This document shows, one piece after another, positions 10,192 through 20,248 of a stretch of 64,000 nt of DNA; position 1 is the stretch's first letter; the number at the start of each line of letters is the position of its first letter. A program made the position numbers and the translations under genes. Source of the stretch: Candidatus Poribacteria bacterium (GTDB taxonomy: Bacteria > Poribacteria > WGA-4E > WGA-3G); the NCBI GenBank assembly GCA_022827225.1, contig JAJDTJ010000067.1, positions 1 through 64,000 of the forward strand, read 5' to 3'. Under the pieces are notes generated by a model. That model was given only the letters and a program-made list of their open reading frames with translations. It did not search any database and was not told where the DNA came from.

Positions 10192-10242
10192 AGATAGAGC
10201 AACTCCCTCAGATATGAGGCGATTGCGCCTATGCCATTTCAA

Positions 10243-10332
10243 TCAAAGTGTCGATAATGAGCAGAGGCACCATCGCCTTGAACCGAATCGGTTCGGATGA
10301 AATATAGCGTGGCTCAAACTTAATTTTAACAT
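10243..10332 (-). CDS. Small ORF with very strong RBS; probable frameshifted 34-aa gene
   Basis: AAAGGAGGAGGT precedes an ATG at 10332. In that frame the product is an unremarkable 29-residue peptide ending at 10243. The neighbouring frame, entered by a -1 slip at the AAAA run after ATG-TTA, reads MLKIKFEPRY… to …IIDTLIEMA, ending at TAG 10229-10231 (34 residues). That version looks much more protein-like. Either the true gene uses slippage, or one A is missing here through mutation or sequencing error. It lies 37 bp upstream of the sigma-region-4 gene and would be co-transcribed with it. No family is recognised. Confidence 0.4.
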   Translation of the reverse strand: MLKLSLSHAIFHPNRFGSRRWCLCSLSTL

Positions 10333-10539
10333 GATCGGTACCTCCTCCTTTATTTGTGTTTATAGTTTCAAACGGTGCTAAGAAAGCGATAACGCTAACC
10401 ACTGGCAAACCGTATTATATCAAAAATACCAAAAATATACCATAAAAATCTGGATTAGGACTGCATACGCGATCCAAAGACAGCCTTCAAGATGGGGGAC
10501 AGAGGGAGTTTAACCCTCCGTCCCTTTCCAAAGAGTGCG

Positions 10540-10578
10540 ACACTTAGTGTCACACCACAAGGGCGTAACACTAAGTGT
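10540..10578. promoter_or_regulatory. Pair of 11-bp palindromes in a leader region
   Basis: ACACTTAGTGT (10540-10550) and ACACTAAGTGT (10568-10578) are perfect palindromes with centres 28 bp apart, each followed by GTGTCACACC or a near copy. They could be an operator pair or RNA hairpins in the leader of the minus-strand unit. A further hairpin with arms GGGAC-n-GAGGG and CCCTC-n-GTCCC lies at about 10496-10523. Confidence 0.45.
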
Positions 10579-10603
10579 CACACCTCCTCTGGTTTGCTAA
10601 CAT
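10571..10603 (-). CDS. Possible 10-residue leader peptide MLANQRRCDT
   Basis: The sequence AAAAAGGAGG stands about 8 nt before ATG 10603 on the minus strand, and the frame ends after ten codons. The codons include two adjacent rare-type AGG arginines and a cysteine codon. The stretch around its 3' end overlaps the palindromes at 10540-10578. The arrangement of strong RBS, minute ORF and hairpins resembles a translational attenuation leader. Whether it is translated is unknown. Confidence 0.35.
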   Translation of the reverse strand: MLANQRRCDT

Positions 10604-10683
10604 AACAAATTCCTCCTTTTTCTCTCTACCGCAATAAAGCGGTATTAGGATATCATCGGCATTAAAAAATGACAATGATTCAC

Positions 10684-10705
10684 TTAAACACATTTTCGGA
10701 TGCAC
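10684..10705 (-). promoter_or_regulatory. Shared promoter-region motif, copy A
   Basis: On the minus strand the site reads GTGCATCC, then GAAAAT, then GTGTTTAA. The same 22-bp pattern occurs at 18011-18032 and 20200-20221, each time upstream of a minus-strand transcription unit. Here it lies 80 bp before the leader peptide start and heads the unit leading to the sigma-region-4 gene. The TTAA part probably overlaps the -10; no -35 hexamer is visible. Confidence 0.6.
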
Positions 10706-10784
10706 TTTTGCACGTTTTTGGAAAAAAAAATGAAAAAATATTTTTTTCGGGTTGAAAAGTGATGCAGCTCCGCTTTGCAAATTG

Positions 10785-12698
10785 CTATTGCCATGTAACT
10801 TGGTTCATATCCCACAGCATAACCACACCACTTTCGTCTATACTGGCAAGTATACGTCCATCAGGACTGAACGCTAACGCTCGGACCCAGGTCGTGTGTC
10901 CAGTGAGCGTAACTGTGCTTCGCTCAATGAATGTGTCCCGCAACCGAATCACTCCAAAACATCCACTCGCAAGTATACGTCCATCCGGACTAAACGCAAC
11001 AGACAAAACACTGCTTCTTGTAGGCTCTTTAAAGGTATTCAATAGTTTACCTGTTTCCACATCCCATAAATGCATTATACCACCATCACCGCTACTTGCA
11101 AGCACAGTGCCACGTGGGGAAAATGCGACAGCAGCAACCCTATTCGTGTGCCCGACAAGCGAGGCTTTGAGTTTACCGGTGTGCACGTCCCATAACCGAA
11201 TCACCAACTCACCAGTTGCACTGGCAATCGTTCGTCCATCTGGACTCAGCGACATGGCTGTGACACCCTCGTTTTCCAGTTCTGTAATGTTCGCTGTAAT
11301 GGTTTTAAGGGGTTTATCCGTCCCAATATCCCAAATACGAATTGTATTGTCCCAACTGCCGCTCATAAGTGTTGCGCTATCTTGTGAATAGACAATAGAC
11401 GGCACCCCCTTCTCATGTCCGGTGATCGTTTTTTGGAGCTGCCCAGTCGCCACATCCCATAAACGAATATTACCGTCCCAACCGCCACTTGCAAGCACGC
11501 TGCTATCTGGTGAGAACCGCACCGAATTAACAATGTCTGTGTGGCCAGTAAGGATTTTCAGAAGTTGCCCACTCTGTACGTCGCGCAGCGAAATAGTATG
11601 ATCCGGCATCCCATTATACGCAAACATCTGACCATCCGGTGAAAATGCCACCGATCTCCCAAAAGAGCCGGTATGTCCGGCGATCGTTTTCAAGGAGTTT
11701 GCTGTCTCCGCATCCCAAAAACGAATCGTTCCGTCATAGTGACTCATACTCACAACGGTTTTTGCATCTGGTGCGTACATTACACTACCAACACCATCCG
11801 TATGTCCGGTAAGGGTTTTCAAGAGTTTACCGGTACTCGCGTTCCAAAAGCGGATTGTCTTATCCCAGCTGCCGCTCACAAGGGTCGTGCCATCTCGCGA
11901 GTAGACCACAGAACTAACGCCAGATGTATGTCCAACCAGTGTTTTTAGGTGTTCTCCAGTACCAACATCCCAAAGATAAATATTGGAATCGCTACCCCCA
12001 CCCACCAGGGACTGACTATCAGGTGAATATGCGACACTGTAGATATGTTTCGGAAGCTCAGTAATAGTCTGCAGGAGTTGTCCAGTCTCCACATCCCAAA
12101 TACGAATTGTTGTTCTGTCTTCCCAACCAACACTCGCCAATCTCTTTCCATTATTTGAATACGCGATAAAGCGGATAGACATAGACCTTGTGTTAAGATC
12201 TGTGTGTCCTATAAGGGTCTTTAACGGCTTACCGGTGTGCATATCCCACAGTTGAATCGCATTGTTCCAAGTTCCGCCTGCGACCGTTTCTCCAGTAGGG
12301 CTGAATGTTAATGAACCGATCCTATGTGTGTCTCCTATAAGAACACTTCTCAATTTCCTATCCTGTAGGTCCCATAAATAAACGCTGCCGTCACTTGCAG
12401 CAGCAAGCGTCTTTCCATCGGGGCTGAGGCGCATATCTTCGGTGAACGGTTCTGTGATGAGATCCAGTGCTTCACCCGTGCGTACATCGTATATCCAGGT
12501 GCCGATCGAACTCAAAACAGCAAGGCGATGACCATCCGGCAAATAGACGCAATCGGTAAGGGTCCCCTTCCCAAAACGCGCGATCGCGCCTTCAGGAAGA
12601 TGCCATCGGGTGTAATCTTGCGCGGAACCGCTTGGTAGAAAGAGGACGGTAGCTAACAATAGAATAGACATAGAATAAAAAAAACGCGTTGTTCTCAT
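10785..12698 (-). CDS. Exported WD40 beta-propeller protein A
   Basis: A 637-residue protein with a signal peptide of about 26 residues (hydrophobic core ILLLATVLFL, then SGSAQ). I count fourteen repeat ends of the form LWD-x-x-TG (for example LWDMHTGK, IWDVETGQ, LWDVATGQ), enough for two seven-bladed propellers. Repeats carry the usual GH…V..V.FSPDG..LASG spacing. WD40 propellers act as protein-binding scaffolds; the extracytoplasmic location is inferred from the signal peptide. AAGGAAA precedes the ATG. It is a close paralogue of the protein at 16031-17926, and the two flank a pair of ABC-2 permeases. A MITE-like insertion separates it from the upstream permease gene. Confidence 0.88.
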   Translation of the reverse strand: MRTTRFFYSMSILLLATVLFLPSGSAQDYTRWHLPEGAIARFGKGTLTDCVYLPDGHRLAVLSSIGTWIYDVRTGEALDLITEPFTEDMRLSPDGKTLAAASDGSVYLWDLQDRKLRSVLIGDTHRIGSLTFSPTGETVAGGTWNNAIQLWDMHTGKPLKTLIGHTDLNTRSMSIRFIAYSNNGKRLASVGWEDRTTIRIWDVETGQLLQTITELPKHIYSVAYSPDSQSLVGGGSDSNIYLWDVGTGEHLKTLVGHTSGVSSVVYSRDGTTLVSGSWDKTIRFWNASTGKLLKTLTGHTDGVGSVMYAPDAKTVVSMSHYDGTIRFWDAETANSLKTIAGHTGSFGRSVAFSPDGQMFAYNGMPDHTISLRDVQSGQLLKILTGHTDIVNSVRFSPDSSVLASGGWDGNIRLWDVATGQLQKTITGHEKGVPSIVYSQDSATLMSGSWDNTIRIWDIGTDKPLKTITANITELENEGVTAMSLSPDGRTIASATGELVIRLWDVHTGKLKASLVGHTNRVAAVAFSPRGTVLASSGDGGIMHLWDVETGKLLNTFKEPTRSSVLSVAFSPDGRILASGCFGVIRLRDTFIERSTVTLTGHTTWVRALAFSPDGRILASIDESGVVMLWDMNQVTWQ

Positions 12699-12717
12699 AT
12701 CAATTTTCCTTACTGTT

Positions 12718-12929
12718 TAGGACTTACGCAGTTCCGTTTTATAGTAAAGCCCATAATTATTTGGACGCTTGATTGATCGTAGGGTCTGGGTCACCCAGCC
12801 CCTACGATCGGGCAATGTGGTATTGTTATTGTCGAGTGTCAATTTATTTTCGTGCTTACTCTAAAGTCCCCTGATAAGGGGATTTAGGGGGTTAAAGATA
12901 CCGAAATTACTGTTTTTGCCTAAGTCCTA
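12718..12929. mobile_element. MITE-like element, 212 bp
   Basis: Imperfect terminal inverted repeats bound the element: TAGGACTTACGCA at 12718-12730 and TGCCTAAGTCCTA at 12917-12929 (one mismatch). It contains no ORF. Inside is a palindromic core, CGTAGGG…CTGGGT / ACCCAG…CCCTACG (12779-12808), and a TATAGTAAAG…ATAATT block that recurs elsewhere in the window. It fills almost the whole gap between the permease and WD40-A genes; without it they would be about 25 bp apart. Confidence 0.6.
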
Positions 12930-12935
12930 TCTATA

Positions 12936-14342
12936 TTACACCTCAACGCGTACAAACGCAAGGTATACTCCCGATAGCAGGACTATAATAAACAGTGCTA
13001 ACAACAATAGATCAACTGCTGCAGTATTGAAATCCTTGCTGAAACTGAGTGTGTCTTCAAATTTGGGAACCGCTTCTGGACTGACAGGTTTCTGGGACAT
13101 CCCTTCACGAACCCCAATGATGTGGAGGCTTTCCGGATCCGCTTTATCAGTGTCAACAACGAATTCTCGGTATTCACGGGCATAAACTTTCACATTCTCT
13201 AAGAATTGCAGATGCCGCTCGAAACCCGTTCCGGCAAAGGCTTCAAGCAGGTGTTGAAAAATTGTGACAGGAGACAATCGGGTGATGGCGCGTGCTTGAT
13301 TCACTTGTGAAACCTGTTGTTTTAAGCGTGCCTCGTGCAAGTGTTCTTGCTGTTCAACGTCTTCGGTGACGAACGCACCATCCACCTCCATTTTTTTTCT
13401 TGAATCTCCACGTGCCTCCCGCCAACGGGACGAATATTGATCCTCAAGCGCATAATGCAGTTGCCATGAATGTTCATAAAATCCGTGAGTCGCCTTGGGC
13501 GATGCGGAATCCCCTGCAATGGCAGCGAGCGTCCCTGGCATAAAAACCACAAGAGAGACCCAAACCAATAGGAGGATCACCAGACTCACCGCGCTCCGTT
13601 GCACACGCGCCGAAACGAGCAGCCCTAACGCGAGAAAAAGACAGGTGTACAGCAGCGCAATAAAGAAGATAATGCTTAAACGTCCCCATGCTTCAGCCCC
13701 AAGGTGGACATTGCTTGATGTAGAAATTGTCAAAAGGTTCATCAATACGGCAAGCGTAAGCGGAATGCTGAGACTTATCAATGCCCCCAAAAATTTTCCA
13801 ATTAGGACAGTGTGACGCGGAATTGCATTTGCCAATATCAACCGCAGGGTACCACGTTCACGTTCGCCAGAGATGGAATCGAAGGTGAATAGCAGGGCTA
13901 TCAGACTCAAAACGTAACCGATGATAAAACTCCAATCCACTAAGGTAGCATCTGGACGTAAACTCCCTAAACTGGTATTCACTGGCGGATATCTGAGTAT
14001 CCAGAAACTTTCCAATGTCTGAGTGGTCCAACGAATGAGTCCTTCTGTCGTTCGTGGTAAATCAGTTTCACTACCTTCTGCGCAGAAACGGAGCGAGGAC
14101 GGCTTTTTGTGAAGATCACCAGGTCCCTTTTGCGCGAGTCTATACAAACTTTCATCCGCAAAAGCCGTTAAACGATCCTCGTATTCGGCGACTCCGTCGC
14201 GATACGCCTGGACCCGCTTCGGATGTTCCTGAAGATGCACAACAGCGTTGGTCAACATCAAGCCAATAAGCAACACAGTTGCGAGTGCAAACCGAAGGCT
14301 ATTGAGATTATCGTAGAGTTCCCGTTTCGCGATATGCCACAT
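12936..14342 (-). CDS. ABC-2 type transporter permease with large extracytoplasmic insertions
   Basis: A protein of 468 residues from ATG 14342. One N-terminal membrane helix (FALATVLLIGLMLTNAVV) is followed by a soluble insert, then a cluster of about five membrane segments, a second large insert of about 150 residues, and a final membrane segment near the C-terminus. The motif EREXGTLRL (here ERERGTLRL) after the second helix is typical of ABC-2/GldF/NosY-type permeases. No ABC ATPase gene is adjacent. It pairs with the similar gene upstream at 14465. ATG 14342 is chosen over 14369 because it aligns with the start of the paralogue (MWHIAKRELYDN against MLTTLIHRELLDN), although no strong RBS is seen. 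Confidence 0.8.
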   Translation of the reverse strand: MWHIAKRELYDNLNSLRFALATVLLIGLMLTNAVVHLQEHPKRVQAYRDGVAEYEDRLTAFADESLYRLAQKGPGDLHKKPSSLRFCAEGSETDLPRTTEGLIRWTTQTLESFWILRYPPVNTSLGSLRPDATLVDWSFIIGYVLSLIALLFTFDSISGERERGTLRLILANAIPRHTVLIGKFLGALISLSIPLTLAVLMNLLTISTSSNVHLGAEAWGRLSIIFFIALLYTCLFLALGLLVSARVQRSAVSLVILLLVWVSLVVFMPGTLAAIAGDSASPKATHGFYEHSWQLHYALEDQYSSRWREARGDSRKKMEVDGAFVTEDVEQQEHLHEARLKQQVSQVNQARAITRLSPVTIFQHLLEAFAGTGFERHLQFLENVKVYAREYREFVVDTDKADPESLHIIGVREGMSQKPVSPEAVPKFEDTLSFSKDFNTAAVDLLLLALFIIVLLSGVYLAFVRVEV

Positions 14343-14351
14343 CTTTTTATG

Positions 14352-14461
14352 CCTGTCGGCTGTCGGCAATCAGCAATCAGCAAAGGGTCCTTGTGGTATT
14401 CAAGCGAGATGTGCATGCCATATATCAATGGTCGACGGTTGACAGCCGATTACTGATAACC
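14352..14461. repeat. Dispersed CAGCAAT-type intergenic repeat
   Basis: This intergenic stretch carries GTCGGCAATCAGCAATCAGC followed by AAAGGGTCC, and at the other end TTGACAGCCGATTACTGATA, which is roughly an inverted copy. Similar text occurs at 38402-38438 (CAGCAATCAGCAATCAGCAA then AGAGGTCC) and at 46055-46140. Confidence 0.5.
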
Positions 14462-14464
14462 ATC

Positions 14465-15970
14465 CTACACTTCACTCTTGATGAAAATCAGAAATATTAT
14501 GATAAACAAGATTACATTAATCATGAGCAGTAAGGATACATCCGGCAGTGCTCGTTTGGCGTTTATATTCGTATCAACTCTTTGAAAAGAGAATTGTGGA
14601 AAGCTGCCCCAATCCGGTGCGCCCTTGTCCGCAGAAAACCATGCTCGAGATCCGAACACATCTTTATCGTAGAAATAGCCGATCACCTGATGTCTGTATT
14701 GTCTCACAGTGTCAAAAAAATCTCTGACACCGTGCATATCCGTGCCTGCCCACGCTTGTGTTGTGGCATCATAAAGTCCGACTGGTGAGAGTTTTAACCA
14801 AGCACTTTCCACTTTTGCGGGGTGAATGTAGATGTTTTCCAATGCTGGCTTTCGGACGAGCCACGTTCGGTCTGCTGTATCCGTAACCAATCGACCGAGG
14901 AAGCGGAAATAATTCTGGGCGTGAGGGATCTTGGGTTCATGTTCATCGCTAAGTGTCTCAAAATCCGTGTAACTTATGTAGTTATGCCGTAGAAGTCCAG
15001 GGTCATCCTCAAACCCTGCGTAAAGTGATCCACCCCCTATAACACTAAAATGCCACTCTTCCCCTGGGAAAGCATCAGTGGCGAGGAAGTGTTTCCGTTT
15101 TCTATCGAATTCCTCCCAGATCTGTTGGATTTGATTGAAGGTGGATGCCGTGCGTGCCTGCGGTGACTCAAGACGTCGGATTACAGCAAGCGTCACATTT
15201 GGATAGACTAGCACTAAAAACCCCCAAACGAACATAGCGAGCATCAAGGCGGTACTTGTTCGACGCGCCGCCGCCGAAATCAGGATCCCAATGAGGTAAA
15301 ACACCGACAGATACGCAACAGAGGCCAAAATAATTCCGCCAATGCGCAGAAAATCATGGTTATTTAGGGAGATAACAGCGGAATTCGTTAGCAAAATCAC
15401 AGCGAGAAGAAGGCTCATCAGCAACGGCACTAGCAGGCACAGCATCGCACTGACGTATTTCGCAAGCAGAATATGCCCGCGACGAACGGAATTGGTTAAG
15501 ACGAGACGTAATGTCCCTCCCTCGTATTCTCCAGCAAGTGCATCGTAAGCGAAAATCAGTGCCAACAGGCTCAAGACAACCTTGAAGATAAAGACAATAT
15601 CCATCGAGGTGAAGATATTCATAAACGGATTATCCGAACCGTGCCTACGAGCATCCCACAGCGATGGAACATATCGGTGTGATACCTTAACCTCGTTTCC
15701 CGGTCGCTTGTCGAATCCGACATTGAAAATGCTTAACGGGTTAGGCGGACGGTCAACATACATTTCACCTGCTGAATAGGTGTTTGTTTCTTGGAGTTGG
15801 CGTTGATGCATTTTAACTGCATCGTCGTAGCCTGCTAAACGTCGCTCATAGTCCTTAATAAGCACAACCGTATTTGTAACCACAAGCAATAGTGTAATGA
15901 AAACGGCTGCCGCGAAGCGGAACGTCATCAGGTTGTCAAGTAGTTCTCGGTGAATGAGTGTTGTTAGCAT
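14465..15970 (-). CDS. ABC-2 type transporter permease with large extracytoplasmic insertions
   Basis: A protein of 501 residues with the same layout as the gene downstream: N-terminal helix (FAAAVFITLLLVVTNTVVLI), soluble insert, five or six helices, a long second insert of about 170 residues, and a last helix at the C-terminus. The GGTLRLVLTNS stretch after the second membrane segment matches the ABC-2/GldF-like family. ATG 15970 is preferred because AAGGAAAAG lies 5-7 nt upstream; the frame opens earlier at 16024. It lies 60 bp after the WD40-B stop, so these genes are probably one operon. The two permeases may form a heterodimer that uses an ATPase encoded elsewhere. Confidence 0.8.
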   Translation of the reverse strand: MLTTLIHRELLDNLMTFRFAAAVFITLLLVVTNTVVLIKDYERRLAGYDDAVKMHQRQLQETNTYSAGEMYVDRPPNPLSIFNVGFDKRPGNEVKVSHRYVPSLWDARRHGSDNPFMNIFTSMDIVFIFKVVLSLLALIFAYDALAGEYEGGTLRLVLTNSVRRGHILLAKYVSAMLCLLVPLLMSLLLAVILLTNSAVISLNNHDFLRIGGIILASVAYLSVFYLIGILISAAARRTSTALMLAMFVWGFLVLVYPNVTLAVIRRLESPQARTASTFNQIQQIWEEFDRKRKHFLATDAFPGEEWHFSVIGGGSLYAGFEDDPGLLRHNYISYTDFETLSDEHEPKIPHAQNYFRFLGRLVTDTADRTWLVRKPALENIYIHPAKVESAWLKLSPVGLYDATTQAWAGTDMHGVRDFFDTVRQYRHQVIGYFYDKDVFGSRAWFSADKGAPDWGSFPQFSFQRVDTNINAKRALPDVSLLLMINVILFIIIFLIFIKSEV

Positions 15971-16030
15971 CAAGCTTTTCCTTTTAACAGCTCTTCGCTT
16001 TTCAGCAAATACAAAACGCTCCACAATACG

Positions 16031-17926
16031 CTATTGATTAGGAACTGGAATCTGGTTCATATCCCAGAGAATAACCGTACCATTATTACCGCTAGCAAGC
16101 ATTTTGCCATCCGGACTGAACGCTATTGCTCGAATCCAGCCCGGATAACCGGTGAAAGTGCCTCTATACTCACCAGTGGTGGTGTCCCACAACTCGATGG
16201 TCTTCCAACTCGCGCTGGCAACTATTTGTCCATCCGGACTGAAGGCGATGCCATAGATAGCACCCCTTGCCTTTTCGATATTATGTAGCAAGCTCCCCGT
16301 GCGGACATCCCACAAACAGAGGTTGCTGCCTTCACCCGCACTTGCGAGCATCGTGCCATCTGGAGAAAATACGATGGCAGCAATTCTATCTGTATGTTCC
16401 GTAAGGGTTGCTTTGATTTTACCCGTGGGCATATCCCACAACCGAATTTCCGCTTCGTCAGTTGCCACAGCAAGCGTCCTGCCATCAGGGTTAAGTGTGA
16501 TGGCTCTGACTCCGATAGATGAATTGGCATCTGTTATATTTCCAGTAATCATTTGCAGGAGATGTCCAGTATCAACGTACCACAAACCGATGGTATTGTC
16601 CCAACTCCCACTCACGAGGGATTTGCCATCGGGTAAATAGGCGATAGAATGCACCCCTTCCGTGTGAGCGGGAACAGTTTTGAGAAGTGCTTCCGTGCTA
16701 ATATTCCAAAAACGGATTTTGCCATCCCAACTCCCACTCGCGATGGATTCACCATCCGGTGAATAGGTCACTGAAAGCACCCAATCCGTATGACCCCTGA
16801 GAGTTTTCACCATTTGTCCACTCTGGACATCCCGTAGCACAATTGTATGGTCGGCTCCTCTACCAATTGCAAGCGTTTCACCATCCGGTGAAAAAGCCAA
16901 TGATGACCTCGCTCCAAAGCTATGTGAAGTAAAGGTTTTCAGAAGTTCCCCAGTGTGAGCATCCCAAAAGCGCAGCGTCCCGTCGTATCCGTTACTGACA
17001 AGCGTCTCTTCATCCGGTGAATACATTACTTGTGTATGCCCCTTAAGTATCCTTATTGTCTCACCGGTGCCGGTATCCCACATACGAATCGTTTTATCCG
17101 CACCTCCACTCACAAGTGTCGCGCCATCTCGTGAATAGATTATAGAGCTGACACGATCTGTATGTCCAACAAAGGTCTTCAGGAGCTTTCCGGTCTCGAC
17201 ATCCCAAATGCGAATCGCATGGTCCTTCCAACCGACACTCGCAAGCGTCCGACTATCCGGAGCATACGTGATACGTGAGACTCTATCGGTGTGTCCTGTA
17301 ATGGCTTTTAGGAGTTCTTCAGTCTCGACATCCCAAATAAGGATTGTCCAGTCCTTCCAACTCGTGCACGCTAATGTCTTTCCATCGTTTGAATACGCCA
17401 CCAGACGGATCATATCCGTGTGTCCTACGAAGGTCTGTTTCAACTCACCGGTGCTAACATCCCAGAGTCGGATAGTCGTATCCCGACTCCCACCAGCGAG
17501 GATCTCCCCAGTCGGACTGAACGCCAGCGAATAGATCCTATCTTTGTGTCCCACAAGTAATTTATCTACTTTGTTCGCTTGGAGATCCCATAAGACGACC
17601 TCACGATCCGTTGCAGCGGCAAGGGTCTTTCCATCCGGACTCAGGACCATGAGATTCCATCTCAATTTTGTCCCCAAGTCCGTGAATAGATCCAGTTCCT
17701 CGCTTGTATGAACATCATATATCCAGAGACCGATTGCACTCCGAACAGCGATCCGATTGCCATCGGGAAGGTACGCGAAATCGCCGATACCGCCTTTCTC
17801 AAAGCGCGCAATAGCCCCCTCAGGCAGTCGCCACCGAGTGTAATCTTGAGTAGAACCGCTTGACAAAAAGAGAACTGTAGTTAATAAAAGAATAGATATA
17901 ACGCAAAAAAATCGACTTGTCCCCAT
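16031..17926 (-). CDS. Exported WD40 beta-propeller protein B
   Basis: A 631-residue paralogue of the protein at 10785-12698, with the same signal-peptide type (CVISILLLTTVLFLSSGSTQ), the same mature start (DYTRWRLPEGAIARFEKG) and again fourteen LWD-type repeat ends, so two seven-bladed propellers are likely. Both end with a WDMNQ blade. It is the first gene of the WD40/permease/permease/WD40 set and lies 85 bp downstream of motif copy B. GGAG stands about 13 nt before the ATG. A sensor or scaffold role outside the cytoplasm with the ABC-2 permeases is inferred from gene order only. Confidence 0.88.
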   Translation of the reverse strand: MGTSRFFCVISILLLTTVLFLSSGSTQDYTRWRLPEGAIARFEKGGIGDFAYLPDGNRIAVRSAIGLWIYDVHTSEELDLFTDLGTKLRWNLMVLSPDGKTLAAATDREVVLWDLQANKVDKLLVGHKDRIYSLAFSPTGEILAGGSRDTTIRLWDVSTGELKQTFVGHTDMIRLVAYSNDGKTLACTSWKDWTILIWDVETEELLKAITGHTDRVSRITYAPDSRTLASVGWKDHAIRIWDVETGKLLKTFVGHTDRVSSIIYSRDGATLVSGGADKTIRMWDTGTGETIRILKGHTQVMYSPDEETLVSNGYDGTLRFWDAHTGELLKTFTSHSFGARSSLAFSPDGETLAIGRGADHTIVLRDVQSGQMVKTLRGHTDWVLSVTYSPDGESIASGSWDGKIRFWNISTEALLKTVPAHTEGVHSIAYLPDGKSLVSGSWDNTIGLWYVDTGHLLQMITGNITDANSSIGVRAITLNPDGRTLAVATDEAEIRLWDMPTGKIKATLTEHTDRIAAIVFSPDGTMLASAGEGSNLCLWDVRTGSLLHNIEKARGAIYGIAFSPDGQIVASASWKTIELWDTTTGEYRGTFTGYPGWIRAIAFSPDGKMLASGNNGTVILWDMNQIPVPNQ

Positions 17927-18010
17927 ATCAATAATTATCTCCGTGCTATGTTGTTTCAGGAACCAGAAATGAAAAATAAAAGTTTAAAGTGAGATGTGCA
18001 GTCTGATTGT

Positions 18011-18032
18011 TTTAACACACTTTTGGATGCAC
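18011..18032 (-). promoter_or_regulatory. Shared promoter-region motif, copy B
   Basis: The minus strand reads GTGCATCC, then AAAAGT, then GTGTTAAA, matching the copies at 10684 and 20200. It lies 85 bp upstream of the WD40-B start and downstream of the terminator of the preceding operon, so it marks the promoter region of the WD40/ABC-2 operon. Confidence 0.65.
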
Positions 18033-18058
18033 TTTCGGTAAGATTATAATTATTCTGC

Positions 18059-18094
18059 AAAAAATCAGGGACAGAGAAGTGTCTTCCCTGTCCC
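18059..18094 (-). terminator. Intrinsic terminator after the infA-rsgA-GNAT operon
   Basis: On the minus strand GGGACAGGGAAG and CTTCTCTGTCCC (plus-strand 18068-18094) form a 12-bp stem with one wobble pair and a 3-nt loop, followed shortly by six T residues. It lies about 30 bp beyond the GNAT stop codon. Confidence 0.75.
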
Positions 18095-18124
18095 TTTCAA
18101 TTCGATTCAGTTTTGGCAAGAAAA

Positions 18125-18955
18125 TCATTCTTCGGAATCAAAGAACAATCCGAGCGGTGCACTCAACTGTGGCGCAACATCCGCTTCGTCTACGACTTTA
18201 TCGCCTGCCCATTCGCTACGTTCAATCCCCATCGTGTAAGTCTGCCGCGTCATGTCAGTGTAACTGAGATATTGGAATCCTGCATTCTCAAAACAGGTGA
18301 GTGCGGGTCCATTGTCGGCGAACACTTCTAAGGTAACGTGCTCAGCATCGAGTACCTCAAACGCGTAACGGACAGTCTCAATGAGTACATCAGTGCCGTA
18401 ACCGCGAGCGCGATAGTCTGGTCGAATGATAACGAATCGGATCGTAACAGTGTCCGCGTCGCGCTTAAGCAGCATAAACCCAATGAGGAAACGGGTGGTT
18501 CGGATTTCAATAGCGAGTGGAAGCGTTTCCGCGTCGGCTGCCCAACGCTGCCAATCCTCCAGAAACGTTTCAAACGATACCCGTGCTGAATAAAGAAGGT
18601 TCCTGATGCCGGGACGGTTGATCCAGCCCCAAATTTGGCGAAGTTCGTTCTCAGCGGTCTGTCGGAGGCGGATGCCGCCGCTGTAGAGGCGTTCCAGTTG
18701 CCGCAATTCGCTGCGCAGTCCCTCCAAATATGCCGAGTGTGTCCCAACTTGTGCGCCAGCTATGCGAACCTTACGTTGGTTCGGACGATCCATGAATTTC
18801 GCCTGTTTCACTCTATTCTGGAAGTATCTGAGTTTCCGTTCACTCCGCTCAATAATGCGTAGCAAGTTGTTGATAGCAGCTTCCCACTTCTCAAGATCAG
18901 CGTTTGCGTCTTCTCGTGTTTCGCTCCGATCTTCTTTTATCTGAGTTTCGTTCAT
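18125..18955 (-). CDS. Coiled-coil plus GNAT acetyltransferase-like protein
   Basis: A 276-residue protein. The N-terminal 85 residues are highly charged and predicted to be helical (DLEKWEAAINNLLRIIERSE and on). The C-terminal part has the GNAT signature: FVIIRPDYRARGYGTDVLIE is the acetyl-CoA binding loop, followed by HVTLEVFADNGPALTCFENAG. It would acetylate an unknown substrate. ATG 18955 is set by GGAGGGGAG just upstream. That start lies inside the end of rsgA, giving a 59-bp overlap, so the two are probably translationally coupled. The fusion of a coiled coil to GNAT is unusual, and its link to ribosome assembly genes is only positional. Confidence 0.75.
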   Translation of the reverse strand: MNETQIKEDRSETREDANADLEKWEAAINNLLRIIERSERKLRYFQNRVKQAKFMDRPNQRKVRIAGAQVGTHSAYLEGLRSELRQLERLYSGGIRLRQTAENELRQIWGWINRPGIRNLLYSARVSFETFLEDWQRWAADAETLPLAIEIRTTRFLIGFMLLKRDADTVTIRFVIIRPDYRARGYGTDVLIETVRYAFEVLDAEHVTLEVFADNGPALTCFENAGFQYLSYTDMTRQTYTMGIERSEWAGDKVVDEADVAPQLSAPLGLFFDSEE

Positions 18956-19886
18956 ATCTCCCCTCCTTGAATCCAGAAATCCGGAGATAACTCTCATACC
19001 GGAGTGGATTGATATTACCGACTTCAACTGCCGTTTTGACAGCACATGCCGGTTCGTGCTGGTGTGTACATGCCGCAAATTTACACTCTGGAATATATGG
19101 GCGCATCTCAGGAAAATGGATATCCAATCCCTGTTCGTCATCGACTTCAAGCAACCCAAGGGTTCGGATGCCGGGCGTATCTGCCACAAATCCACCAAAC
19201 GCAAGCGGTAGCAGCATCACCTCTGTTGTTGTATGCCGCCCTTTGTGGATACGTTCATCTACTTCACCGACGCGTAATCGGAGCCCGGGTTGTAACGCAT
19301 TAAGAAGAGAGGACTTCCCGACCCCTGATGAACCGACAATCGCAGAAATCTTGTCCCCCATTGTCTCTCTTAACTCATCAACACCGAGTCCAGTTACGAT
19401 ACTTGTATAAACTACCTTATACCCTAATTCTTCATATAATTTAAGTTCGCGCTGGACATTCTCCAATTTTGCCAAGTCCATTTTGTTGATACAGATAACC
19501 GGTTCTACATCAGAAGCCTCGGCAGTGACGAGGAATCTATCAAGCATCCGCAGTTTCAGGGTCGGGTGCCGGGCAGCAAAGATAATGAGCAGCATCTCCA
19601 AGTTCGCAACGATAACCTGTCGCCAACCGTCCATTCGGATACGTCCAAATTGCGTCTCGCGTGGGAGACGTTCCTCAATGTACCCGTTATCCTCGGTCAG
19701 TACCGGTATCGAAATACCGACTCGATCGCCGACCGCAATGAAATCAACATAAGGCATCTCTTTCGTTTCATCGAGACGCCGCTTCTCTTCTTCTATGAGG
19801 TGGTGCCGGACCGTACAGGTATAGCAACGGTCGCCAACCTGTACTTCGTAGGCACCCCCTCTCGCTTTTATGACAATACCTTCCAT
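18897..19886 (-). CDS. rsgA: Ribosome small-subunit biogenesis GTPase RsgA
   Basis: A protein of about 329 residues with circularly permuted GTPase order: OB-fold first, then the G4 motif NKMD (CINKMDLAKL), later the P-loop GSSGVGKSS and DTPG (VADTPGIRTLG). Finally there is a zinc-binding CX…C-x-H-x-x-x-x-x-C region (ECKFAACTHQHEPACAV). RsgA checks late 30S assembly. ATG 19886 has AGGTG 9 nt upstream; a GTG at 19898 directly follows the infA stop and is an alternative. The tail is Arg/Lys-rich. It follows infA, whose product also binds the 30S A-site region, so the pairing is functionally sensible. Confidence 0.92.
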   Translation of the reverse strand: MEGIVIKARGGAYEVQVGDRCYTCTVRHHLIEEEKRRLDETKEMPYVDFIAVGDRVGISIPVLTEDNGYIEERLPRETQFGRIRMDGWRQVIVANLEMLLIIFAARHPTLKLRMLDRFLVTAEASDVEPVICINKMDLAKLENVQRELKLYEELGYKVVYTSIVTGLGVDELRETMGDKISAIVGSSGVGKSSLLNALQPGLRLRVGEVDERIHKGRHTTTEVMLLPLAFGGFVADTPGIRTLGLLEVDDEQGLDIHFPEMRPYIPECKFAACTHQHEPACAVKTAVEVGNINPLRYESYLRISGFKEGRYERNSDKRRSERNTRRRKR

Positions 19887-19898
19887 TGTTAAATTCAC

Positions 19899-20165
19899 CT
19901 ATGCCCCCGGATTCCGCCAGATAATACGTCCGCGCGTTAGGTCATACGGAGAAAGTTCAACAGTAACATGATCACCGGGAAGCACCCAGATTTTGTGCCG
20001 CATCAGTTTGCCAGCAAGGTATGCTACGACTTTGTGGTCGTTCTCTTCTAATTTAACGTGAAATAAGTTACCCGGCAAGGATTCCATGACGACCCCCAAG
20101 ACGCGGATAGCAGTGTCTTTATTAAGAGATTCATGAGTTTCTGGGGATGTTTTTTCTTTTTTCAT
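19899..20165 (-). CDS. infA: Translation initiation factor IF-1
   Basis: An OB-fold protein of 88 residues whose last 70 match IF-1: [52 protein letters not shown]. The first 18 or so residues ([18 protein letters not shown]) form a polar extension longer than in typical IF-1, which is about 72 residues. AAAGGAG lies upstream of ATG 20165; an earlier in-frame start at 20207 lacks support. In many bacteria infA sits between secY and rpmJ in the ribosomal cluster, but there it is absent and this is the only copy in the window. It forms an operon with rsgA. Confidence 0.9.
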
Positions 20166-20199
20166 TTGAGTTTCTCCTTTTTCGTTTAACGTTATCTGT

Positions 20200-20221
20200 T
20201 TTAACACTATTTTGGATGCAC
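20200..20221 (-). promoter_or_regulatory. Shared promoter-region motif, copy C
   Basis: The minus strand reads GTGCATCC, then AAAATA, then GTGTTAAA, 35 bp upstream of the infA ATG. It is the third copy of the motif found at 10684 and 18011. Confidence 0.65.
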
Positions 20222-20248
20222 TTAATTAACGTTTTGTTCGGAAAAAAG

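Follow-up and report, generated by a model that had tools for sequence, protein, structure and literature searches.

A 64,000-nucleotide window of DNA from a Candidatus Poribacteria bacterium (GenBank assembly GCA_022827225.1, contig JAJDTJ010000067.1; contig C114 of a draft genome of 5.62 Mb) carries three minus-strand copies of a promoter-like motif, which we call sites A, B and C. Poribacteria live mainly in sponges, and the named relatives are all Candidatus Poribacteria metagenome-assembled genomes (MAGs). Site B lies before four genes in the order WD40/ABC-2/ABC-2/WD40, and site C before infA, rsgA and a GNAT gene (Table 1). An earlier inspection of the DNA, the sequence-only reading, had placed every copy at the head of a minus-strand unit. 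This holds for B and C, but at A a leader of about 500 nt with two short open reading frames (ORFs) separates the site from the next gene, which encodes a stand-alone sigma70 region-4 protein (the sigma4-like protein).

Table 1. Sites, leader elements and genes in the window, ordered by position.
Feature	Position	Strand	Remark
Stand-alone sigma70 region-4 protein, 124 amino acids	9820..10191	(-)	recognition helix GISRRVVSQHLFG; proposed reader of the box
Leader helix GGUGCCUCUGNYCAUU : AAUGGCAUAGGYRC	10225..10271	(-)	just before the sigma4-like gene
Upstream ORF 2 (uORF2), 29 codons	10243..10332	(-)	Shine-Dalgarno AAGGAGG 10344-10350
Long hairpin, then GC-rich terminator-like hairpin	10496..10592	(-)	long hairpin 10528-10592; terminator-like hairpin GGGACGGAGGG..CCCTCTGTCCC 10496-10524
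Upstream ORF 1 (uORF1), MLANQRRCDT*	10571..10603	(-)	strong Shine-Dalgarno AAGGAGG 10612-10618
Site A	10682..10709	(-)	AAAAGTGCATCC box 10698-10709; extended -10-like TGTGTTTAAGT 10682-10692
WD40 repeat protein	10785..12698	(-)	last gene of unit
ABC-2 permease (ABC2_membrane_2/DUF3526)	12936..14369	(-)	target
ABC-2 permease (ABC2_membrane_2/DUF3526)	14465..16024	(-)	target; family also under a site in another family of the order
WD40 repeat protein	16031..17926	(-)	target
Site B	18008..18036	(-)	box GAAAGTGCATCC 18025-18036 with TGTGTTAAAAC; orthologous site in relatives
GNAT acetyltransferase region	18125..19204	(-)	third gene of infA unit
rsgA (30S-maturation GTPase)	18897..19898	(-)	target
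infA (initiation factor IF-1)	19899..20165	(-)	target
Site C	20198..20225	(-)	box TTAAGTGCATCC 20214-20225 with AGTGTTAAAAC

The motif and its sites

All three copies match GTGCATCC-N6-GTGTTWAA exactly (10684-10705, 18011-18032 and 20200-20221), as first read. This consensus carries about 31 bits, with an expectation of about 6e-5 exact matches per 64 kb; in shuffled sequence, 1.04 matches turned up when as many as 3 mismatches were allowed. Between copies B and C, 20 of 22 positions are identical, where at least 19 had been claimed. While the proposed 22-bp core is exact, the element is longer, since AAAA precedes GTGCATCC and its 3' portion can be read as an extended -10. Written out in full, it is AAAAGTGCATCC-N5-6-TGTGTATAA, a 12-bp box at fixed spacing from the extended -10, with a variable, A-rich spacer. 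Among 27 non-redundant sites picked by GTGCATCC alone, the unselected AAA(A) on its 5' side and GTGT at +14 to +17 were both conserved.

To find further sites, we searched the genome with up to 2 mismatches and listed every GTGCATCC occurrence, and found an intergenic set distinct from about 200 coding background matches. The exact pattern AAGTGCATCC-N6-RYRTDW occurs at 10 sites genome-wide, and its reversed control at none. All ten are intergenic and lie 52-167 bp before an ORF on the same strand, which for copy A is the 10-codon leader ORF. An eleventh candidate (C58:10137, L026) was excluded for a spacer one base shorter and a conserved, coding-like context. Chance likeness or mobile-repeat fragments might be suspected for so short a motif next to WD40 and ABC-2 genes, which form paralogous families. 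The control counts near zero and the conservation of sites at orthologous genes across genera leave this explanation virtually no probability, and no phage homologue of the sigma4-like protein appeared in the collection searched. An origin as a mobile repeat (MITE/REP) was ruled out because similarity among the sites ends outside about 30 bp and the flanks are unrelated.

None of the ten sites has a -35 hexamer above background, in line with the sequence-only reading, and the box AAAAGTGCATCC appears to stand in its place. Site A is conserved in 19 relatives and is proposed to be the autoregulatory promoter of the sigma4-like gene and its leader. Sites B and C are the likely promoters of the WD40/ABC-2/ABC-2/WD40 unit (17926 down to 10785) and of infA-rsgA-GNAT, respectively. 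Site C lies 56 bp from the infA ATG, and its box ends about 50 bp short of this codon, which leaves no space for another promoter. Ahead of infA, AAGT(G/A)CATCCAA and the TGT that opens the -10 do not vary among 22 genomes. The conventional TTGACA-17-TAAAAT promoters reported earlier for other genes here are exemplified by the divergent gene adjoining copy C; a TGTCAACTTTTTTCC block farther upstream of infA is part of that promoter.

A sigma28-like -35/-10 geometry and a LytTR-type direct repeat were considered early and set aside in favour of the link to the sigma4-like protein. We also considered that the motif is a full -35/-10 promoter read by a genuine alternative sigma factor: one of the roughly 91 sigma70 proteins of this genome, or a split sigma composed of the sigma4-like protein and a separate region-2 protein. 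The genome is indeed very rich in sigma factors, the region-4-only protein has a precedent in SigO-RsoA (PMC8103513), and the -10 register is loose, its final T often being absent. However, with only about 9-10 bp between box and hexamer, regions 2 and 4 of a single sigma could not both be accommodated; the 3' half has the form of an extended -10 of sigma70 type (exactly TGTGTTATAAT in some families), and no conserved region-2 partner was seen next to the sigma4-like gene. The short spacing and the sigma70-like -10 therefore disfavour a complete alternative sigma, and we regard this explanation as unlikely. The sequence-only reading had suggested an activator site or an alternative-sigma site linking translation factors to the WD40/ABC-2 system. 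Ten pre-gene sites, a reversed control near zero and orthologous conservation support such a link, and neither outcome that it had named as refuting, random positions or mobile repeats, was borne out. Of its two options, an activator working with a sigma70-type extended -10 is the better supported.

Outside the window, the sites precede thiO, a GNAT gene, two ABC-2 permeases, a repeated family without known function, a MacB-like permease, a second rsgA with a nucleoside-phosphorylase-superfamily gene behind it, and a pair of WD40 genes. Orthologous sites are kept across the genus. Beyond it, where few genomes are available, the ABC-2 permeases and the unknown family recur under the motif in a second family of the order, and the GNAT gene in another genus; no site was found upstream of rsgA orthologues in another family. 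Each genome has three rsgA paralogues (noted at G000:C8:60943-61812 and C116:10099-11055), two of them under the motif. The unknown family is tandemly repeated (L127:935-4535, G000:C129), has no Pfam or NCBIfam match, and is preceded by the motif in another family of this order as well (L305, L310). At thiO, a TTGACA-17-TAAACT promoter lies between motif and start codon (L124:2630-2690), giving two tandem promoters. An extracytoplasmic function (ECF) sigma gene downstream of thiO was dropped as a candidate autoregulated regulator, since it lies 1.7 kb away and thiO is served by a TTGACA promoter of its own.

The sigma4-like protein and its association with the motif

The protein matched Sigma70_r4 (PF04545) with 50 bits (cut-off 24.1) and TIGR02937 with 46.5 bits (cut-off 42.9); in Pfam and NCBIfam only region 4 was matched, and region 2 is absent. 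Compared with other members of the sigma70 superfamily, it lacks regions 1-3 and shares the region-4 helix-turn-helix and fold. Its own features are a conserved segment at the N-terminus, NPDFWEIPV, and a beta-hairpin predicted to follow the recognition helix. An AlphaFold model (mean predicted local distance difference test score 82) contains the region-4 helices and this hairpin, and among the best experimental matches in Foldseek are sigma-factor domains that bind the -35 (3hug, 2h27), although the E-values are weak. The modelled fold thus resembles sigma region-4/-35-binding domains. The recognition helix is nearly invariant down to 42% identity, and the gene is single-copy in nearly all genomes of the genus, where it adjoins site A. 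No region-2 partner was seen beside it. The genome as a whole holds about 91 sigma70 region-2 matches (e.g. on contig C72), many within ORFs of about 1000 amino acids, an exceptionally large set of probable ECF sigma factors with long C-terminal extensions; a distant region-2 partner of the sigma4-like protein may lie among these matches.

To relate protein and motif, we compared their presence in 83 genomes of the class, and found both in 61, neither in 14, the protein only in 3 and the motif only in 5. The association has a Fisher p of 2e-9 by genome, although genomes are not independent; counted by genus (20 genera), the numbers are 9/3/0/8 (p = 0.001), with two apparent coding-region chance matches discounted on visual inspection. 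The motif-only genomes have relatives that carry both and were taken as incomplete assemblies, except for one whose lone match looks like a coding-region chance hit. In the protein-only genomes, which belong to three genera, AAAAGTGCATCC or a near variant lies upstream of the gene and the -10 has diverged.

A scan of 84,980 species returned 80 named loci of the sigma4-like protein, spanning Poribacteria, Latescibacterota, Handelsmanbacteria and MAGs labelled Gemmatimonadota, Zixiibacteriota and Hydrogenedentota. In 77 of them the recognition helix is intact and the upstream DNA long enough; 73 of these 77 carry the box no more than 1.5 kb upstream, where chance would give about 0.1. To judge by position, autoregulation is therefore conserved. 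Two homologues with altered helices (PHQVVSQHIYG and SQSTVSRHLFG, at L293 and L303) had no box upstream; they may recognize another target sequence and thus form a natural test of specificity. In two loci (L301/L302), two AAGTGCATCC boxes lie 21 bp apart upstream of the gene, so that the promoters overlap. In L106, L110, L119 and several other Poribacteria loci, a second motif copy follows the site-A leader unit, just before a second leader.

The link between protein and motif is an association, and some unrelated regulator could read the motif with the sigma4-like gene as its most conserved target. The matching presence and absence across the 20 genera, together with the two helix-changed homologues that lack the motif, make this quite unlikely. 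We consider it very unlikely, too, that the sigma4-like protein is a repressor bound within the promoter, exerting negative control over itself and its regulon. Conserved autoregulation and a box inside the promoter would suit a repressor. Yet no site has a -35 element, so the promoters look activator-dependent, and the protein resembles sigma region 4, normally a recruiter of polymerase. The missing -35 therefore favours activation and disfavours repression.

The leader of the sigma4-like gene

Across the genus, site A is followed by AAAGGAGG, the 10-codon uORF1, a long hairpin and a GC-rich terminator-like hairpin. The uORF1 sequence is near-invariant in relatives, including synonymous positions; this conservation could alternatively reflect RNA structure, since part of uORF1 also forms a hairpin. 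Folding of the 10496..10592 region gave a minimum free energy z-score of -9.1, and many relatives have a hairpin followed by a T-run. An Rfam search with the site-A leader RNA found no family. The stretch at 10496-10603 is itself a strongly structured, near-invariant leader RNA, in a leader with two very strong Shine-Dalgarno sequences, and may be a terminated small RNA.

A short ORF behind GGAGG precedes the sigma4-like gene in nearly all Poribacteria and in most Latescibacteria-type loci. For uORF2, the RNA sequence is conserved and the peptide is not. The leader helix just before the gene is paired in 97.6% of cells, compared with 32-49% when slid, carries compensatory substitutions (A-U replaced by U-A in 6 sequences and G-C by A-U in 2), and was recovered independently by RNAalifold. 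As read from the sequence, base pairing is also possible between its 5' strand and the second ribosome-binding site (GAGGUACC with GGUGCCUC). Latescibacteria-type loci have one leader with a uORF behind GGAGG, and in most of these leaders a hairpin with a run of five to nine T behind it lies about 50-90 nt ahead of the gene. Throughout, peptides vary and frames shift while the RNA blocks persist: most leaders combine a short ORF with a strong ribosome-binding site, and many add a covarying helix or a terminator. This looks like an attenuator architecture.

Proposed mechanism and comparison with known systems

Taken together, we consider it probable that the motif is the core promoter of a regulon under the 124-aa sigma4-like protein, with promoters like those of MotA and a translation-stress logic like that of WhiB7. 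The region-4 helix-turn-helix would bind the AAAAGTGCATCC box directly, instead of a -35 and about 23-34 bp upstream of the predicted start. Through contact with sigma70-RNA polymerase, it would bring the enzyme to a weak promoter that has only the extended -10 TGTGTATAA, as phage T4 MotA does at middle promoters, and so activate rather than repress. The gene would activate its own promoter at site A. The leader has short ORFs, strong ribosome-binding sites and alternative RNA helices, to which relatives add a terminator; it might admit RNA polymerase or ribosomes to the gene mainly when ribosomes stall on the uORFs, raising expression. A block in translation might then raise the level of the protein and switch on IF-1, two RsgA GTPases, GNATs and the MacB/ABC-2/WD40 genes. 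The translation-stress reading is suggested because the targets include IF-1, two RsgA paralogues, GNATs and MacB/ABC-2 transporters, and because of the parallel with WhiB7. Compared with the sequence-only reading, the probable reader protein, its apparently conserved autoregulation across phyla and the attenuator-like leader are new.

Several points weigh against this interpretation. With about 91 region-2 proteins in the genome, another sigma could read the motif and the sigma4-like gene could be merely a target. Four Poribacteria loci retain the protein and its helix, although the local site is gone. In function the regulon is heterogeneous (WD40 proteins, glycine oxidase, the unknown family), and translation stress is inferred from only part of it. 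The thiO site could act differently, given the intervening TTGACA-type promoter, and the best Foldseek E-value is a weak 4e-3.

In promoter geometry, the closest known case is the middle promoters of T4, where a MotA box centred near -30 takes the place of the -35 ahead of a sigma70 -10 (PMC6755090). As sequence architecture, a box in place of the -35 and a fixed spacing to the -10 are common to both. The sequence and spacing differ here, and the protein is sigma4-like, encoded on the chromosome, apparently autoregulated and kept across phyla; searches of Pfam, NCBIfam, PHROGs and Foldseek matched it to sigma region 4 and not to MotA or AsiA. For circuit logic, WhiB7/WblC is closest: a small regulator at the sigma/-35 region, autoregulated and attenuated by a uORF, whose regulon counters translation inhibitors (PMC7157823; PMC13236596). 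The likeness lies in the position of a conserved site at the regulator's own promoter (73/77 loci) and in the architecture of the uORF/attenuator leader. WhiB7 belongs to the iron-sulfur Wbl proteins and works next to an intact -35, unlike a sigma4-like protein whose box replaces the -35, and the 124-aa protein had no Wbl match in Pfam or NCBIfam. SigO-RsoA of Bacillus subtilis, with sigma region 4 on a separate small protein in an autoregulated operon (PMC8103513), is the closest case for a separate region 4; it differs in that no adjacent region-2 partner is seen here and the spacing does not fit a -35/-10 pair. The candidate system works like MotA and WhiB7 and is a member of neither, and no compared system shares both protein and site. 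A literature search for the motif found no relevant bacterial match.

More tentatively, the system may represent an undescribed class of activator, a stand-alone sigma region 4 with its own promoter class in several uncultured phyla, driving an attenuator-gated, autoregulated response to translation block. As part of the same possibility, it may be an analogue of WhiB7 that arose independently from a sigma-factor domain. If true, this would provide a defined regulon, a promoter class and a candidate regulator for Poribacteria and related uncultured sponge and marine bacteria from DNA alone, together with a concrete prediction for the roles of the extra IF-1 and RsgA copies. It would also mean that a lone sigma region 4 can act from the chromosome as an activator that has a box of its own, and that antibiotic or translation-stress logic of the WhiB7 type arose more than once.

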